Shown here: in pieces, positions 766-7,551 of the stretch
Numbering within the stretch: position 1 is the first letter of the stretch
Layout of the letters: each line of letters begins with the position of its first letter
Source of the DNA: an uncultured Nitrospira sp.
Lineage (GTDB): Bacteria; Nitrospirota; Nitrospiria; Nitrospirales; Nitrospiraceae
DNA length: 37,832 nucleotides
Direction of reading: 5' to 3'
Assembly: GCA_902500755.1 (NCBI GenBank)
Contig: CABVRV010000007.1
Coordinates: 1 to 37,832, forward strand
Program-made: the position numbers and the translations under genes
The notes under the pieces: generated by a model
What the model was told of the DNA's origin: nothing
Database searches by the model: none
Seen by the model: the letters and a program-made list of their open reading frames with translations, nothing else

Positions 766-1035
766 TTATCGGTTCCACCGACGGTGCGAAGACGCAGGTG
801 CAGACGCGGACCCTGTTGAGAGAGAGCTCTCATGACGCGTCCGCTGGCGGTTGAATGCGATGATCTTGTCGATCCATTCGCCACAATTTACGCAGCGCCA
901 AGACGGGTCCCGCACCGCCTCAGTCAATTCCAAGAACAGCGAATCAGTGAAGCACGGCACCATTAATCCCCGACAGCGTCCGCAGCTGTCCATCTGCACC
1001 GCGCTGGTTTTCCCAATAACGTTGTGATCTTTCAT
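766..1035 (-). CDS. Small zinc-ribbon-like protein
   Basis: This 89-residue protein has two cysteine pairs: CGRC near residue 18 and CVNC near residue 48, the latter in the context WRCVNCGEWID. Four cysteines in two CxxC knuckles about 30 residues apart suggest a single zinc ribbon. The remainder is basic and probably disordered (Ser/Arg-rich tail). No enzyme motif is visible and I do not recognise the family. It lies just upstream of the nucleotidyltransferase on the same strand, and its upstream DNA carries an ACTAGG-type dyad at 1129-1146, so it may belong to the same regulon as the sensor kinase locus. The start at 1035 has only a weak ribosome site; the second in-frame methionine is too far in to keep the first cysteine pair in context. 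Confidence 0.6.
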   Translation of the reverse strand: MKDHNVIGKTSAVQMDSCGRCRGLMVPCFTDSLFLELTEAVRDPSWRCVNCGEWIDKIIAFNRQRTRHESSLSTGSASAPASSHRRWNR

Positions 1036-1128
1036 GATGGCCTCGCCTTGTTCCTCGACCGCAAACAGTTACCTCCCCACATTCGTCTGCATAAGTTCGC
1101 ACAATAAAGAGTGAGCGGACTCTGCGCT

Positions 1129-1146
1129 ACTAGGAAAGAACCCTGT
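1129..1146. promoter_or_regulatory. Operator-like dyad, degenerate copy
   Basis: ACTAGG AAAGAA CCCTGT. The left half-site is perfect; the right half matches CCTAGT at 4 of 6 positions with the same 6-nt spacer as the perfect copies. It lies about 95 nt upstream of the leftward gene starting at 1035. Confidence 0.35.
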
Positions 1147-1331
1147 ACGACGAGCGAATTACCCCAGAAGGAACGGTTACTTTTTCTCAGGGAAGGGAAT
1201 GCGTAGCAAGAGGCCACATGGGAAAGAGGCGGCACAAAATGCACGCCGATCAGCCACAGTTTTGCCGCGCCTATGGACTCACGGCACGGTTGTTCGGCAA
1301 TGAGCGGTTTCTGGTATCGATGGACGACAAG

Positions 1332-1349
1332 ACTAGGCTCTTTCCTAGT
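1332..1349. promoter_or_regulatory. Operator-like dyad ACTAGG-N6-CCTAGT, perfect copy
   Basis: ACTAGG CTCTTT CCTAGT: two perfect inverted 6-mers around a 6-nt spacer, centred about 173 nt upstream of the exported protein gene at 1514. CTAG is rare in the window, so an exact pair in this geometry is unlikely by chance. Confidence 0.6.
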
Positions 1350-1513
1350 TCGTTAGGCATCCAATACAAGGTAGGGTGGTCTATGAGCGGACAGAAGTTT
1401 AGTTCATCTCAATCTTCGGTGCGGTCAGCTTCAGCTGAAGAAGTGCGTGAGTGAGCTGCGCGTGAACGAAAGGTATCTCTTAATCCTCACCTCACCAGAC
1501 GAGAGGTAGCGTC

Positions 1514-1879
1514 ATGAACAACTTATTGCGTGCCTGTTCAGTCGTGGCCGCCATTCTGTTCGGAGTGTCGTTCGCATTCGCCAATCCATCGATGTTGCCG
1601 AATCATCCCGGCTATCCCATGGACAAGGCGGTCGACCCCGTGCTCGGCCAGTCGCTTGCAAACGATCCTGGGCAGAAGAACGCAGTCGGGGACCAGGCCT
1701 TACATGAGGCGGCAGTCACGGACATTGATCATGTCACACAGAGCTTGTCCATCAATCGACAGGACGAGCGCATCTTGGAGAAACCGGGCGCCGGCTTGTT
1801 GCCAAAGGTCGAAGGTCCGGTGATCAAGATCGAGCCTCCGGTACAGGAAGGGTCGAAAGTGACTTCAGAACCAAAGTAA
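1514..1879 (+). CDS. Exported protein of unknown function
   Basis: The product has 121 residues and begins with a clear secretion signal: a basic start (MNNLLR), a hydrophobic core to about residue 20, and a likely cleavage after AFA near residue 23. The mature part is short, polar and proline-rich, with an HPGYPM motif just after the signal and a charged tail. No cysteine, haem motif or catalytic motif is visible, so it is probably a periplasmic accessory protein. The ATG at 1514 has a GAGAGG ribosome site 7 nt upstream. It is monocistronic, facing the convergent gene at 1965-2444. The dyad at 1332-1349 may control it. I do not recognise a named family. Confidence 0.75.
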   Translation: MNNLLRACSVVAAILFGVSFAFANPSMLPNHPGYPMDKAVDPVLGQSLANDPGQKNAVGDQALHEAAVTDIDHVTQSLSINRQDERILEKPGAGLLPKVEGPVIKIEPPVQEGSKVTSEPK

Positions 1880-1964
1880 TCACTTGATCAGGCGGGGTCA
1901 GAATACGGAGACAAGCGTCGCATAGAAGCCAGATCGAGAAAATGCCCGATTTTTGGAGCGAGCC

Positions 1965-2444
1965 TTAACGAACCGTCGTCGCCTCAACGCGTGAAGGAAC
2001 TCGCCGCCTCCCGCAGGCCACTACACGGGCGCAGGCAGGGCACATGTCGTCGGTTCGATCGAGCTCGATCCAGGTCAGGCCATATTTCTTCAGATAACGG
2101 TGCGCTTCAACCCACGGCGATTGACCATCTTCCGACCCAATTTCGTCGCAGAGGTAGCCGCATCCCATGCAAAAATGCACGGGAGGGCGGCCGGTGCGTT
2201 CAGTTCTCTGTCCACATTCAATTCTATGTTCTTGACATGATGCGGAGAGGGAGAGCTGGTAGACAGAACTGGAAGGACGCTGAATCACCAATCGGCCGTC
2301 TCGCGACATGTGATCGACAGCGAAAAATACCTCACTCCAGCCATAGGAGGGGAGTGAATAGACCACCTCATCCATCGTGCAAGGTCCGGTGCGGGCCAGG
2401 ATATCGATCACGGCGTCATGAATACTCGTTTGCGCAGTGGACAT
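1965..2444 (-). CDS. Winged-helix-like DNA-binding protein with C-terminal cysteine pairs
   Basis: The protein has 159 residues. The first 60 or so look like a small winged helix: a short helical start (IHDAVIDILAR), a TMDEVVYSLP helix, then SRDGRLVIQRP, typical of a wing strand. The second half has a zinc-ribbon layout with CMGC and CDEIG near residue 95 and CPAC near residue 140. That suggests a metal- or redox-sensitive transcription regulator; DNA targets are unknown. I chose the ATG at 2444 over the GTG at 2450 because the AGGAGGT ribosome site would touch the GTG but is well spaced for the ATG. It is divergent from the sensor kinase, and the 189-nt region between them holds two ACTAGG-type dyads, so it may take part in their control. 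Confidence 0.75.
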   Translation of the reverse strand: MSTAQTSIHDAVIDILARTGPCTMDEVVYSLPSYGWSEVFFAVDHMSRDGRLVIQRPSSSVYQLSLSASCQEHRIECGQRTERTGRPPVHFCMGCGYLCDEIGSEDGQSPWVEAHRYLKKYGLTWIELDRTDDMCPACARVVACGRRRVPSRVEATTVR

Positions 2445-2526
2445 GATCACACCTCCTAAATCCCAATGGCAACGGAATTATCGCTTCAAGTTCAGCGTAC
2501 TGTGCCTGGAGACGACCGAGAGAGGA

Positions 2527-2544
2527 ACTAGGCGGCGACCTAGT
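2527..2544. promoter_or_regulatory. Operator-like dyad ACTAGG-N6-CCTAGT, perfect copy
   Basis: ACTAGG CGGCGA CCTAGT, flanked by a further A/T pair, so the arms are 7 nt (AACTAGG/CCTAGTT). It lies 83 nt upstream of the leftward regulator and 90 nt upstream of the kinase start, in a divergent promoter region. Confidence 0.65.
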
Positions 2545-2612
2545 TTGACGACAAGATCTCACCGGGAGCGCTTCCCTTCCTTAACCGCCCGTTCGCATGA
2601 TGCCGCCCGTTC

Positions 2613-2630
2613 CCTAGGTGATCACCTAGT
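2613..2630. promoter_or_regulatory. Operator-like dyad, near-perfect copy within a 16-bp palindrome
   Basis: CCTAGG TGATCA CCTAGT. The central CTAGGTGATCACCTAG is a perfect 16-bp palindrome. It ends 3 nt before the ATG at 2634, so a bound protein would sit on the promoter or the translation start region of the sensor kinase. Confidence 0.65.
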
Positions 2631-2633
2631 GCG

Positions 2634-5600
2634 ATGGAGTTTGCTTTAGGTATAAACTACCCACCCCGACGCGATGCCATAACCACTCATTATTTTGCGG
2701 TGTTTCAGGGTGTTTCAGATGGAGCCTGGTACGTGACCCCTGAACCGATTCAGGCAAAATCGATTGGCTGCATCTTTGCCGCAGCAGTAGCAGCAGCGGC
2801 GATCTTCGTTTTCGACCTTGTCACTCCACGTGGCATCGCTGTGCCGATGTTCTATGTGTTGCCGATCTTGTTCACAAGGTACATTCCTGGTTGGTGGAGT
2901 ACGGCCTTCCTGACTGGCGGCGTTGTCGTCCTCAGCTGGGTGGGGATAATGCATTATTTTGATGAGGTTAGGCCCGTGATGGTTTGGAACCGGGCCATGA
3001 CCTCGTTTCTGTTAGTTGTCGTCGGGGGGCTCTTGCTCAAGGAAAAGCACCTGGCTCAGCAACGCGCCAAGGATCAAATGGAGTTGCGCGAGAGCAAAGA
3101 ACGATTTGCCAAAGCCTTCCGGATAAGCCCAAACCCGATAGGGATCACGGAGGTGGCAACCGGTCGTTGTGTTGAAGTGAATGAAGCCTGTTTGCAGCTG
3201 TTCGGTTTTTGTCGCGAGGAAGTGATCGGAAACACCACGTTGATGTTGGGCATCTGGCCGAATCAAGAGGACAGAGCGCGGCTCGTTGAGCGCTTGAAAG
3301 CCGGCGAGACGGTGCGCAATCTTGAGTTAAGCTTCAAGACCAAATCCGGGGAGTTGCGCCATATTCTTGTGTCTTCGGAACTGGCGGAGTTCGGCGGAAC
3401 GCTCTGTCTGATTACCGTCGGCAACGACATCACCGAGCGCAAACGGGCGGAGGAAGGGCTGCACAAAGCGGAGTCGTACTACCGCACGATTTTTCAGGAA
3501 GCCGGAGTGGGCATGGCCCAAGTAGATTCGCGAACAGGGCAATTCTTCAAGGTTAATCGCAAGTATTGCGAGATGGTGGGTCGCACCGAGGACGAAATGC
3601 TGGCGACGACGTTCATGAGCATCACCCATCCGGATGATATCGCGAAAAACCTAGGCTATTTGGAACGCATGCGGAGCGGGGAGCTGTCCACCTACTCAAT
3701 GGAAAAGCGATACGTGAGGAAGGATGGATCGATCGTATGGGTCATTCTCAATGTGGCATCCTTGTGGCAGGCCGGTGAGATGCCGTCTCAACACATTGCC
3801 GCTGTTCAGGACATTACAACCCGCAAGCAGACGGAAATTGCGCAGCGCGAAAGCGAGGAGCGGCTGCTGTTGGCACTAGAGAGTGCGAGCATGGGCACGT
3901 GGGATTGGGATAGTGAGACCGACTCGTTGCTGTGGAACGATCGGCAGTTCGAATTGTTCGACATCCGGCCGGAAAACTTTCACGGCACAGGAGCCGAAGC
4001 GCTGGCGAGGGTTCATTCGGAAGATCGTTCACGTATTGCTGCAGCCGTCCGCAGAGCGGTGGAAGAAGACATGGTTTTCAGAGAAGAGTTTCGCGTCGTT
4101 CATGCCGACGGCTCGGTGCATTGGCTGTTTGGGTCGGGTCGGCCTGTACGGGATGAGCATGGTCGCTGTAAGCATGTGGTCGGGGTGAATCTCGATATCA
4201 CCGAGCGCCAGCGGGCCCAGGAAGGGATGCAAAGCCTGACCGAAATCCTGGAGGCACGTGTGCGCGAACGGACGGCGGCGTTGGCCTCGGCCAACGAGCG
4301 CTGGGATTGGGTCGTTCGCGCGACCAACGACGGAGTCTGGGACTGGGACCTGGTGCACGACACGGCCTATTTTTCTCCTCGATGGAAAGAGATGCACGGG
4401 TTCCCGGAGAGCGATCGAACGGAATCGACGAAGGAATGGTTGGCCAGAATCCATCCGGAGGATCGACCTCGAGTGCTCGAAGCACTCGGACGATGCCACG
4501 CAGGCAAGGGACCTCAGTTTCATGAGGAGTATCGCGTCCAAAAGAAAGACGGGATCTATCTGTGGGTGCTCGACCGAGGCATCGCCGTCTTCAACGACGA
4601 GGGCCGTGCCGTTCGCATGATCGGGGCAGAGACGGATATCACCTGGCGCAGAGAAACCGAGGAGACGCTGCGCCGGAGTGAGCACGAGTTTCGGACCCTG
4701 GCTGATAATGTTCCGGCCTTATTCAGCTACATCGATCGAGACCGTCGGTACCGGTTCGTCAACAAACGGTACGAAGAACTCTTCGGTCGGTCCGACCAAG
4801 AGCTGAGAGGGATGCTGATGCAGGACCTGCTTGGTTCGAACGGCTATGCGCAGGTGCAGCCTTACATGGACCAAGCTTTGGCGGGAGGGTCGGTTTCGTT
4901 CGAGTACGAACTGAAACTATCTGGCGACGGCCCGCACTACTTAGCCGGGCAGTATGTACCGGATCGAGACGAGCACGGACAGGTGACAGGGGTCTTTGCA
5001 CTGATTACCGACATCACTGCGCTCAAGTCATCCGAGGCGTTGTTGCGAGAGCGAGAAACGCAACTCCGCGAGCTCGGTGCCAGGTTGCTGCGGGCGCAGG
5101 AGGAAGAACGGCGACGGATTTCGATGGACCTTCATGACGATGTGATGCAGCGCATGGGGGCTCTGACGTTGGATCTGTACAGCCTGGTCTCCTCTGCGGC
5201 CTCGCCAGATGGGGAACTGCAGTCGCAGCTCAAAGCCTGCGGGGCGTCGGCGGAGCAGCTGACCACGGACTTACAACGGATGGCGCACCAACTCCATCCT
5301 TCGATTCTGGAATTTGCGGGGCTGGAGGTAGCTGCGCGAGAACATGTCCACGAATTCGCCGCGCGAACAGGATTGTCAGCGGAACTCCTGACCAGGAATC
5401 TCCCCAAGGGTATCCCGTTGGATCATGCCACCTGTCTGTATCGTGTGTTGCAGGAGGGGCTTCAGAATGTGCAGAAGCACGCCGCTGCGACCACCGTATT
5501 GGTGCGATTGCTGGGGACGGGTCGGGGTGTGGGGCTGTCTGTTCATGATGATGGACACGGCATCGAGGAGGTTGATGGGGCCGCTCGGCGGAAGGGCCTG

Positions 5601-5726
5601 GGCTTGACCAGTATGGCGGAGCGGGTAGGGATGTTAAACGGCACGTTTCGCGTTCGGACGAAACCCGGCGACGGGACGGAAATCCACGCCTGGGTGCCTC
5701 TGGGAAACGTGACGAGTGAAACGTGA
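2634..5726 (+). CDS. Membrane-anchored multi-PAS sensor histidine kinase, NarL-partner (HisKA_3) type
   Basis: The protein has 1030 residues. About four membrane segments lie at residues 42-140, then five PAS domains at roughly 150-275, 278-405, 408-535, 555-680 and 685-805. Most end in the typical DIT(E/T)R hinge, and a short coiled coil follows the third. The kinase core is of the HisKA_3 class, with phosphoacceptor His834 in MDLHDDVMQR, then an HATPase_c domain with N-box (LQEGLQNVQKHA), DDGHG and GLGLTSMAERV. This class pairs with LuxR/NarL-type regulators, matching the regulator 100 nt downstream. The tryptophan-rich third and fourth PAS domains (WDWDS, WDWDL) resemble PAS_3 folds that bind small ligands or haem; the signal is unknown. 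The ATG at 2634 has no clear ribosome site and abuts an operator-like dyad. A GTG at 2733 with GGAG upstream would keep all membrane segments. Confidence 0.92.
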   Translation: MEFALGINYPPRRDAITTHYFAVFQGVSDGAWYVTPEPIQAKSIGCIFAAAVAAAAIFVFDLVTPRGIAVPMFYVLPILFTRYIPGWWSTAFLTGGVVVLSWVGIMHYFDEVRPVMVWNRAMTSFLLVVVGGLLLKEKHLAQQRAKDQMELRESKERFAKAFRISPNPIGITEVATGRCVEVNEACLQLFGFCREEVIGNTTLMLGIWPNQEDRARLVERLKAGETVRNLELSFKTKSGELRHILVSSELAEFGGTLCLITVGNDITERKRAEEGLHKAESYYRTIFQEAGVGMAQVDSRTGQFFKVNRKYCEMVGRTEDEMLATTFMSITHPDDIAKNLGYLERMRSGELSTYSMEKRYVRKDGSIVWVILNVASLWQAGEMPSQHIAAVQDITTRKQTEIAQRESEERLLLALESASMGTWDWDSETDSLLWNDRQFELFDIRPENFHGTGAEALARVHSEDRSRIAAAVRRAVEEDMVFREEFRVVHADGSVHWLFGSGRPVRDEHGRCKHVVGVNLDITERQRAQEGMQSLTEILEARVRERTAALASANERWDWVVRATNDGVWDWDLVHDTAYFSPRWKEMHGFPESDRTESTKEWLARIHPEDRPRVLEALGRCHAGKGPQFHEEYRVQKKDGIYLWVLDRGIAVFNDEGRAVRMIGAETDITWRRETEETLRRSEHEFRTLADNVPALFSYIDRDRRYRFVNKRYEELFGRSDQELRGMLMQDLLGSNGYAQVQPYMDQALAGGSVSFEYELKLSGDGPHYLAGQYVPDRDEHGQVTGVFALITDITALKSSEALLRERETQLRELGARLLRAQEEERRRISMDLHDDVMQRMGALTLDLYSLVSSAASPDGELQSQLKACGASAEQLTTDLQRMAHQLHPSILEFAGLEVAAREHVHEFAARTGLSAELLTRNLPKGIPLDHATCLYRVLQEGLQNVQKHAAATTVLVRLLGTGRGVGLSVHDDGHGIEEVDGAARRKGLGLTSMAERVGMLNGTFRVRTKPGDGTEIHAWVPLGNVTSET

Positions 5727-5827
5727 ATTGTAATGCATGCACCATAGTGAGCGACGACACTCAGAGGAGGCGCGGCTTGCATCGTGCGGAGATGGGAGCG
5801 TAGGGTAGTCTCATGGAGGCGACGATC

Positions 5828-6490
5828 ATGACAAAGAAGCCCCGCTTACTCATGGCCGACGATCACTCCATTATGCTGGCGGGCCTGCGAAAATTGGTGG
5901 AAGGCACATGCGAGGTCGTCGGGGCGGTTGAAGACGGCCGTGCGCTGGTCGAGGCGGCTGAGCGGCTGCGCCCGGATCTGATTCTGATCGACATCTCTAT
6001 GCCCCTGCTGAATGGGATGGACGCCGCGCGACAGATCAAGAAGTCGGTGCCGGACGCGAAACTGATCTTCCTGACAATGCACGCCTCTCCGGTTTTTGCC
6101 ACCGAGGCGCTCCAGACCGGGGCCTGCGGTTATCTGCTCAAGCAGTCGGCGGCTTCCGAATTGCCGTTGGCGATCGACACCGTGCTTAAGGGACAGATCT
6201 ATCTCACGCCGACCATCACCAAGCCCGTTCTTCATTCGATGGTGAAGCCGAAACCGACGGAATTGAGGAAATCGTTGATGGATTTGACGCCTCGACAGCG
6301 GGAAGTGCTGCAGCTCCTTGCGGAAGGCAAGAGCCCCAAAGACATCGCCGTCCTCTTAAATCTGTCGATCAAGACCGTCGAATTCCACAAAACGCGTCTG
6401 ATGGAGCAACTCGACCTTCATTCCACACTCGCGCTAGCCAAGTTTGCTATTGCCGAAGGGCTGGTCAGCGCCGATGCCGGACTTTCCTAG
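5828..6490 (+). CDS. NarL/FixJ-family response regulator with LuxR-type DNA-binding domain
   Basis: The regulator has 220 residues from the ATG at 5828, chosen because GGAGGCGACG precedes it; an ATG at 5813 would add five residues with a poorer site. The receiver has the acidic pair ADDH (residues 10-13), phosphoacceptor Asp55 in ILIDISMP, and Lys in LLKQSA. The C-terminal LuxR/GerE helix-turn-helix starts near residue 150 (LTPRQREVLQLLAEGKS) and includes the recognition helix SIKTVEFHKTRL. It lies 100 nt after the HisKA_3 kinase on the same strand, the standard arrangement of a cognate pair, and probably binds DNA as a phosphorylated dimer. Dyads of the ACTAGG-N6-CCTAGT type on both sides of this gene pair are candidates for its target; that is inference. 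Confidence 0.93.
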   Translation: MTKKPRLLMADDHSIMLAGLRKLVEGTCEVVGAVEDGRALVEAAERLRPDLILIDISMPLLNGMDAARQIKKSVPDAKLIFLTMHASPVFATEALQTGACGYLLKQSAASELPLAIDTVLKGQIYLTPTITKPVLHSMVKPKPTELRKSLMDLTPRQREVLQLLAEGKSPKDIAVLLNLSIKTVEFHKTRLMEQLDLHSTLALAKFAIAEGLVSADAGLS

Positions 6491-6507
6491 TATTCTTTCC
6501 ATTCCTT

Positions 6508-6525
6508 TCCAGGCAACCACCTAGT
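6508..6525. promoter_or_regulatory. Operator-like dyad, degenerate copy
   Basis: TCCAGG CAACCA CCTAGT. The right half-site is perfect, the left half matches at 4 of 6, and the spacer length is conserved. It lies in the gap after the response regulator, about 133 nt upstream of the small gene at 6658. Confidence 0.35.
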
Positions 6526-6657
6526 AGTGTCGTTGCACAATAACCGCTAACCTCTATCGGCTTTAATCTCTCAACGGTCCCAACGAACGAAGCACCCTGA
6601 CTGGCCATGCATGGATCGACATACATAGAGGAACGAACGATTGCAAGGGGGGAGCTT

Positions 6658-6852
6658 ATGGAGCCGATGATCGTAGCAAGCAAAGGTGCATCCAGGAGTC
6701 CTGGTCGTCCATTCGTTGGAGAAAATACATGTGCACACCGCCGTGCGATCGATGATGTGTTGACTGATCGAGGAAAACGGACGGGAAAGGTCCGATGCCT
6801 CGAGTGTCAGGCGATTATCGACGATCCGTATCACGATCACGGACTGAAGTGA
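6658..6852 (+). CDS. Small cysteine-pair protein of unknown function
   Basis: This 64-residue ORF starts at an ATG preceded by a strong AAGGGGGGAG ribosome site, which decides the start over the in-frame ATG at 6607. It has a cysteine at about residue 25 (ENTCAHRR) and a CLEC pair near residue 49, followed by an acidic, histidine-containing end (DDPYHDHG). That suggests a tiny metal-binding fold similar in style to the other small cysteine-pair proteins in this region. No known family is recognised. It lies between the two response regulators and has an operator-like dyad both upstream and downstream. The good ribosome site is the main support; coding status is not certain. Confidence 0.5.
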   Translation: MEPMIVASKGASRSPGRPFVGENTCAHRRAIDDVLTDRGKRTGKVRCLECQAIIDDPYHDHGLK

Positions 6853-6963
6853 GTGTCGCCTCTTCTTCGGGAGAACTGTACTGCAGGGTACCCACTCGTT
6901 CTTGCCTTGTTTGAGCACAGGGGGGGTGAGCTTCCGGCTCGCCTAGGGTGTTTCTCTCAAATA

Positions 6964-6981
6964 TCTACGTACTGGCCTAGT
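6964..6981. promoter_or_regulatory. Operator-like dyad, degenerate copy
   Basis: TCTACG TACTGG CCTAGT. The right half-site is perfect and the left half matches at 4 of 6 with the conserved 6-nt spacer. It lies 117 nt upstream of the receiver gene at 7099. A further CCTAGG at 6942-6947 has no partner. Confidence 0.35.
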
Positions 6982-7098
6982 TTTCTTGCGTAGATTGATC
7001 CCGTACATCACCTCCCCCAATGGGGCGCTCGGAGTAGGGCCATGAGTTATCTGCGATTGCTTCAGGGTGAGCACTGAAAGGCAAGGAGGACCGTCGTC

Positions 7099-7551
7099 AT
7101 GGTCGAATCGCAACAGTCTATGAACACACCCCGAATCCTATTAGCCGACGATCACCCCCAGATCCTATCCAATCTCTGTCGATTGGTGGATGGGGTGGGC
7201 GAAGTGGTGGGTGCGGTGTCGGACGGACGGACGGCGGTAACAGAATCGCTCCGCCTCCGTCCGGATGTGGTGGTGTTGGATCTCGTGATGCCGGGAGTCG
7301 AAGGTCTAGAAGCGGCGCGACTTATTCGCCGGGACCTGCCCGAATGCAAGGCAATCATCTGCAGCATGTACGCGCATTCTGAGCTGATCGTGGAGACTTT
7401 TTCGGCCGGTGCGGTCGGGCTCGTGCGCAAACAGTCGGCCCATGCGGACCTCGCGCCGGCCATCCGTGCTGCGTTGAATGGGGACACATTCGTCAGTCCC
7501 TCGCTGAAACAAGACGCCGCGCCGCTGCGGAAGAATGGAGGTGGCGGATAA
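7099..7551 (+). CDS. Stand-alone response-regulator receiver without an output domain
   Basis: The 150-residue protein is a single receiver: acidic pair ADDH at residues 16-19, phosphoacceptor Asp61 in VVLDLVMP, a Ser in the switch position (CSMYAHS) and the conserved Lys in VRKQSA. After the last receiver helix it ends in a short glycine-rich tail, with no helix-turn-helix. Its sequence follows the receiver of the regulator at 5828 closely in layout (GAVSDGRTA against GAVEDGRAL; KQSA in both), so it looks like a paralogue that lost its DNA-binding half. It may act as a phosphate sink or competitor for the upstream kinase, or signal by protein contact. AAGGAGG about 10 nt upstream supports the ATG at 7099. 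Confidence 0.88.
   Translation: MVESQQSMNTPRILLADDHPQILSNLCRLVDGVGEVVGAVSDGRTAVTESLRLRPDVVVLDLVMPGVEGLEAARLIRRDLPECKAIICSMYAHSELIVETFSAGAVGLVRKQSAHADLAPAIRAALNGDTFVSPSLKQDAAPLRKNGGGG

Follow-up and report, generated by a model that had tools for sequence, protein, structure and literature searches.

The closest described counterpart of the element discussed here is the UvrY/SirA/GacA box of the BarA-UvrY system, an 18-nt inverted repeat of the form TGTAAG-N6-CTTACA (excerpts of PMC4682653). Our subject is a family of dyads, ACTAGG-N6-CCTAGT, in a 37,832-bp stretch of DNA (positions 1-37832 of contig C7 of a 3.83-Mb Nitrospira genome, 94% complete), hereafter called the window. From their sequence context, these dyads are very probably operators of a clade of NarL/FixJ-family response regulators (RRs), whose phosphorylated dimers would activate the genes of a kinase, a regulator, a receiver and other proteins. 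Both elements combine 6-nt arms with a 6-nt spacer, and the UvrY/SirA/GacA reader belongs to the same superfamily as the RR proposed here (PMC4682653, excerpts). However, the arms differ, and the boxes of csrB and csrC lie far upstream (near -183 at csrB, according to the same excerpts), whereas the position predicted here is about -43. Moreover, the sites that we examined have no known RNA next to them: an Rfam search over the window and six loci gave a single tRNA as its sole match (locus L030). The RR of the window scored 132.4 bits with the UvrY/SirA/GacA model NF007018, far below its 280-bit cut-off, and thus falls outside that group. Its best NCBIfam model was NF052445 of the MctR/MctS system (159.6 bits), and the core of the adjacent kinase matched NF052443 (131.8 bits), but the cut-offs are 300 and 700, respectively, which places the RR outside MctR as well. 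The operators of NarL and VraR reportedly have other sequences than the ACTAGG dyad. Both proteins consist of a receiver and a GerE domain and are the best full-length solved relatives of the RR (structures 1a04 and 5hev). The initial annotation of the window knew of no described operator with this sequence, and our literature search, mainly of open-licence papers, likewise gave neither ACTAGG-N6-CCTAGT nor any operator of a Nitrospira response regulator; excerpts of two Nitrospira papers, PMC12342949 and PMC8115632, mention none either.

The dyads and the two-component genes among which they lie are given below; here and throughout, mismatches are counted against ACTAGG-N6-CCTAGT, and outside genes means outside called genes.

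1129-1146 (-): predicted operator, two mismatches; -10-like TATTGT at 1101-1106; faces an 89-residue Cys-pair reading frame, 766-1035 (-)
1332-1349 (+): predicted operator, exact; -10-like TAGGGT at 1372-1377; faces the gene 1514-1879
2527-2544 (-): predicted operator, exact; weak -10-like CACAGT at 2499-2504 on the minus strand; faces 1965-2444 (-)
2613-2630 (+): predicted operator, one mismatch; -10-like TAAACT at 2653-2658; faces the kinase gene
2700-5726 (+): multi-PAS HisKA_3 sensor kinase (HisKA_3 43.3 bits, over cut-off)
5828-6490 (+): RR with receiver and GerE (LuxR-type) domains, predicted reader of the operators; the frame from 5813 is also open
6508-6525 (+): predicted operator, two mismatches, 18 bp past the RR stop; -10-like TAACCT at 6548-6553; faces 6607-6852
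6964-6981 (+): predicted operator, two mismatches; imperfect -10-like TACATC at 7004-7009, one letter off; faces the orphan receiver

All six dyads had been listed in the initial annotation, and we recovered each of them (two exact, one with one mismatch, three with two) outside genes. They are flanked, as it had claimed, by a HisKA_3 kinase, a receiver-GerE regulator, an orphan receiver and small Cys-pair proteins. The window holds 2, 3 and 7 matches with no, up to one and up to two mismatches, respectively, against averages of 0, 0.01 and 0.31 and maxima of 0, 1 and 3 in 200 order-3 Markov sequences; with up to three mismatches there are 14, against 6.06 (standard deviation 2.33) in shuffles. 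The tetramer CTAG is scarce, as had been noticed (the window has 31 occurrences where base composition predicts 141.5, and 14 of the 31 fall within 1100-7000), but the Markov model preserves this scarcity and the observed counts are still higher. The initial annotation had found no further pair by eye, but a seventh two-mismatch match lies at 2874-2891 inside the kinase gene. It is probably due to chance, because a -10-like hexamer is absent at the right distance on both sides. The description of the dyads as confined to the two-component region is true of the window at up to two mismatches and fails for the genome, where 6 exact sites and 21 with up to one mismatch are spread over many contigs.

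We searched 98 genomes of 15 genera. In the genome of the window (hereafter the own genome), all 6 exact sites have a spacer of 6 although spacers of 0-24 were searched, 20 of the 21 sites with up to one mismatch lie outside genes (the remaining one is in mutS), and many of the 93 sites with up to two mismatches may be chance matches. Exact sites occur in 25 of the 98 genomes and 2 of the 15 genera, and the genomes richest in sites with up to one mismatch are G058 (32), G053 (30), G016 (26) and G024 (24). Of the loci that encode a relative of the window RR we took the 80 best (0.96 Mb, hereafter the RR loci); all 68 sites with up to one mismatch in them are located outside genes at a coding fraction of 0.77, contrary to what would be expected of sites equally common inside genes. 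Exact arms were found 22 times at spacer 6 and once over the 16 other spacers between 0 and 16; with up to one mismatch, 68 pairs had spacer 6 and nine another spacer, five of these spacer 5. Among exact pairs in the 98 genomes, spacer 6 accounts for 57 of 91. In a scan for any 6-nt arm outside genes in these loci and the window, no spacer-6 palindrome was commoner than that of ACTAGG, which stands in 23 of the 81 loci; the runner-up, masked runs excepted, reached 4 loci. Orthologues of the kinase-RR unit have kept the site 5' in 7 of 7 loci including the window (6 exact, 1 with one mismatch), while the flanks diverge. At the position of 2527-2544, which could alternatively be an upstream site for the kinase, six orthologous loci carry an exact site in five cases and a one-mismatch site in one; a one-mismatch site also stands in the orthologous locus L067 at the place equivalent to 6508-6525.

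Two observations on other spacers may be added. Exact arms with a 10-nt spacer occur twice close together in G004 (C212:4539-4747), and exact arms with a 22-nt spacer recur together with related sequence in four genomes (G012, G018, G031 and G041).

The sites stand at a fixed distance and direction from -10-like hexamers. We searched the 216 flanks of 108 non-redundant sites at 90 offsets. The hexamer TANNNT begins at offset 22 in 43 of them, at offset 23 in 15 and at offset 21 in 6, with a mean of 2.6 over all 90 offsets, these three included, and offset 22 is still found in 17 of 102 flanks once the window, the set of RR loci, L032, L033 and L039 are excluded. By mismatch class, where orthologues were kept in, the offset-22 hexamer is present in 19 of 110 flanks of exact sites. 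It is present in 37 of 174 flanks of one-mismatch sites outside genes and 0 of 6 inside, in 34 of 150 and 0 of 28 for two mismatches, and in 13 of 260 and 0 of 250 for three. Many two-mismatch sites outside genes, the degenerate ones of the window alike, are therefore probably real. Within the window, the sites at 1129 (on the minus strand), 1332, 2613 and 6508 are followed by this hexamer; at 6964 it deviates by one letter, and at 2527 it is weak. Gene starts within 500 bp were found for 67 of 84 flanks with the -10 and 102 of 206 without it. Furthermore, among 33 sites located at most 600 bp 3' of an RR gene, the -10 lies on the outward strand in 26 cases and on the other strand in none. One exact site, at 790-807 of L030, has -10-like hexamers on both sides and no called gene within 1.2 kb; an untranslated transcript is possible there, although Rfam names none.

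Such regularity leaves little room for the view that the dyads are chance pairs, copied repeats or transcription terminators, which we consider highly improbable. Some sites do lie just 3' of genes, as terminators would, but arms and spacer length are fixed while the spacer letters vary (tending to G or A just after the left arm), as the initial annotation had argued for a dimer site rather than a copied repeat. In addition, the counts exceed those of the Markov sequences, the -10 hexamers keep their distance and direction, and the site persists where orthologous flanks diverge; on the fixed spacer, the Markov control and the -10 geometry we rejected this explanation. Taking the start of the -10 as -12, the site would span about -52 to -35, and a dimer bound there would cover the -35 region, so that repression has to be weighed as well. 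The site does abut the -35 position. However, in 47 promoters the -35 match at a 17-bp spacer averages 2.34 of 6 (background 1.51), its first T comes from the operator site itself, and 5 of 6 letters are reached in 2 of the 47. Because the match is so poor there would be little promoter to repress, and the fixed 22-bp distance suits contact with the polymerase, so repression appears unlikely. A site that abuts the -35 at a fixed distance from the -10, next to a weak -35 element, is the arrangement of a class II activator, and the geometry points to an activator site at about -52 to -35.

Which protein reads the site is suggested by its distribution. The window RR has receiver and GerE domains over cut-off (PF00072, 85.2 bits; PF00196, 61.6 bits) and a HisKA_3 partner kinase encoded alongside, as is typical of NarL/FixJ (LuxR-type) regulators; its nearest named relatives are from Nitrospira metagenome-assembled genomes (89% identity in RBC083). 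Sites with up to one mismatch are present in 47 of the 80 RR loci, within 600 bp 3' of the RR in 33, at 1.5-5 kb 5' in 18 and at both places in 8, and 37 loci have neither placement. The recognition helix, which in NarL contacts the bases, reads KT[VI][ED]FH[KR] in all 80 RRs. Across genomes, 437 sites (1.81/Mb) were counted in the 66 with the RR and 22 (0.27/Mb) in the 32 without it, and site density follows the RR outside the genus too (10 genomes with it, 29 without; p 0.0026). The loci of two sister paralogues (52-54% identity) contain no site in 31 loci and 227 kb, where about 16 would be expected, and a search for an alternative palindrome in these loci gave no recurrent spacer-6 arm. 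The loci of the C70 sister (L239-L253) show a spacer-2 palindrome with the arm TCCTGT in 7 of 15. When 90 RRs were placed on a tree, the presence of a site within 5 kb (49 RRs) required 20 changes, against 29.8 for shuffled labels; site presence is clustered but far from fixed.

Among the 21 GerE proteins of the own genome, five, the window RR included, have a site with up to one mismatch outside genes within 4.5 kb. These belong to the nine nearest to the window RR (5 of 9 against 0 of 12 of the others; one of the five adjoins another). Since four other GerE genes thus have such a site nearby, the window RR need not be the sole reader. Grouping the proteins by recognition helix gives 4 of 5 against 1 of 16 (p 0.004), which is only a hint as the grouping was chosen after the data had been seen. 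Hence, the proposal that the local LuxR-type regulator recognizes the sites stands insofar as they track its clade, in place and across genomes, but not in the sense of a local family with a sole local reader. The RR was also found in records named for Pseudomonadota, namely L145 (contig of a Woeseiaceae metagenome-assembled genome), with sites at the usual place too, and L114 (labelled Nitrosospira), which may reflect gene transfer or misbinning.

A second candidate reader is a family of small proteins of about 70-90 residues, found in 61 of the 98 genomes, mostly Nitrospira, beside the RR clade and often behind the 3' site. The N-terminus of the window protein 1965-2444 shares its sequence pattern (29% identity to the first row). 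Members include:

L123, 7944-8204: small protein
L119, 7863-8120: small protein
L084, 7805-8020: small protein

If this protein of about 86 residues were the DNA-binding factor, the RR would merely be its neighbour. It has no significant Pfam match and occurs in 64 of the 80 RR loci and 0 of the 31 sister-paralogue loci, so that locus association cannot separate it from the RR. What speaks against it is that sites are present in RR loci independently of it (38 of 64 with, 9 of 16 without). Moreover, nine genomes with the RR and without the small protein (G047, G067, G079, G086, G087, G089, G091, G094 and G095, four of them of one genus) hold 33 sites with up to one mismatch in about 33 Mb. Four genomes of the opposite kind (G009, G050, G059 and G073) hold 4 in about 10 Mb, small numbers in both cases. 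Two of the nine, G086 and G091, carry an exact site 45-46 bp beyond the RR. The small protein therefore fits worse than the RR as reader, and we consider this role rather improbable. Regulators of the CRP/FNR, TetR or MarR kind also bind dyads, and an unlinked one could read the site with the two-component genes only among its targets. Many targets indeed lack linkage to an RR, and our regulator survey covered GerE proteins. But one RR clade has sites directly 3' of its genes in many species (in 33 of the 80 loci), and the density outside the genus follows this clade, so that an unlinked reader seems an unlikely solution.

Assignment to the RR clade has evidence against it as well. Of the 91 exact pairs in the 98 genomes, 34 have other spacers, distributed over 24 lengths. 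No site with up to one mismatch was found in 33 of the 80 RR loci, in some since contigs end, and paralogue C34, which has the same recognition-helix motif, has only a two-mismatch site at -3665. The co-occurrence statistics across genomes ignore phylogeny, and the number of sites also increases with genome size (rho 0.57). Truncated contigs make the sister-paralogue control weaker, as 3' room of at least 600 bp is left in 9 of the 15 loci of one paralogue and in 13 of the 16 of the other. Finally, a control with the backwards pattern exceeded the real counts (304 against 93 with up to two mismatches, 27 against 21; 65 and 74 against 36 and 36); it was set aside because reversal swaps the rare CTAG for GATC, and other spacer lengths were used in its place.

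The remaining genes of the window behind predicted operators are the following; Pfam and NCBIfam gave no match for the small proteins among them.

766-1035 (-): 89-residue Cys-pair protein, predicted target
1514-1879 (+): 121-residue protein, seemingly exported as judged by eye, predicted target
1965-2444 (-): 159-residue protein, N-terminal domain as in the small protein above, C-terminal Cys pairs, predicted target
6607-6852 (+): 81-residue Cys-pair protein, predicted target
7099-7551 (+): orphan receiver, no output domain found, predicted target

The longest frame of the kinase opens at 2634, upstream of the predicted transcript start near 2665, and a start near 2700 is therefore probably the better choice; the annotated one would be too far upstream. 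Beyond the window, targets were surveyed for 21 of 21 sites in the own genome, 22 of 30 in G053 and 15 of 19 in G007, with Pfam applied to chosen neighbours. Behind sites with the -10 at 21-23 we found PAS kinases and hybrids (L029, L183, L185, L198, L200), RRs (L184, L200), a receiver (L201), a cytochrome c554-like protein (L032), CsbD (L040), catalase (L205), an RsbR-type STAS protein and a heme oxygenase (both L186), a relative (L187) of the HAMP-array protein of L037, DUF4331 (L189) and a DPBB protein (L191). CBS proteins (L031, L033), superoxide dismutase (L044) and acetate kinase (L184) lie near sites with no -10 at this distance. Redox or general stress may be the common theme of these genes. 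The presence of two CxxC motifs distinguishes small targets only weakly, with 3 of 42 against 8 of 539 (p 0.04). Small proteins with two Cys pairs stand behind sites in the window (766-1035 (-) and 6607-6852), at 8100-8279 of L084, in L193 and in L197. A multi-haem protein of PF13447, the hydroxylamine oxidoreductase family, is encoded near a one-mismatch site in L042 (4626-6269 (-)); this site overlaps the start of another gene.

For the operators of the RR clade we propose the following scheme. The sequences themselves show the dyad, its constant spacer, its location outside genes, the distance and direction of the -10 and the co-occurrence with the RR clade; we infer the RR as binder, the need for phosphorylation, activation, feedback and the phosphate sink. 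A HisKA_3 PAS kinase would phosphorylate the RR, whose dimer would bind ACTAGG-N6-CCTAGT at about -52 to -35 and recruit RNA polymerase to promoters with a -10 but a poor -35, i.e. by class II activation. In the window, the outcome would be feedback on the kinase and raised levels of the small Cys-pair proteins and of the orphan receiver, a potential phosphate sink. At other loci, paralogous two-component systems and further genes would be under this operator as well. The number of RRs that match at E <= 1e-50 reaches 8 per genome, site-free sisters counted in. We give slightly less than an even chance to the idea that these paralogous two-component systems form an expanded clade in Nitrospira whose members have not diverged in their operator but keep a common one, by which many sensors would feed into a single regulon with the sensors, regulators and receivers themselves among its members.

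Nitrospira are major nitrifiers. The kind of switch proposed here is familiar, whereas for its DNA code we found no description. What the analysis offers for tests in vitro is a regulator clade together with an operator, the geometry of its promoters and a predicted regulon. If the paralogues share the operator, they would represent a natural case of many sensors with one output.

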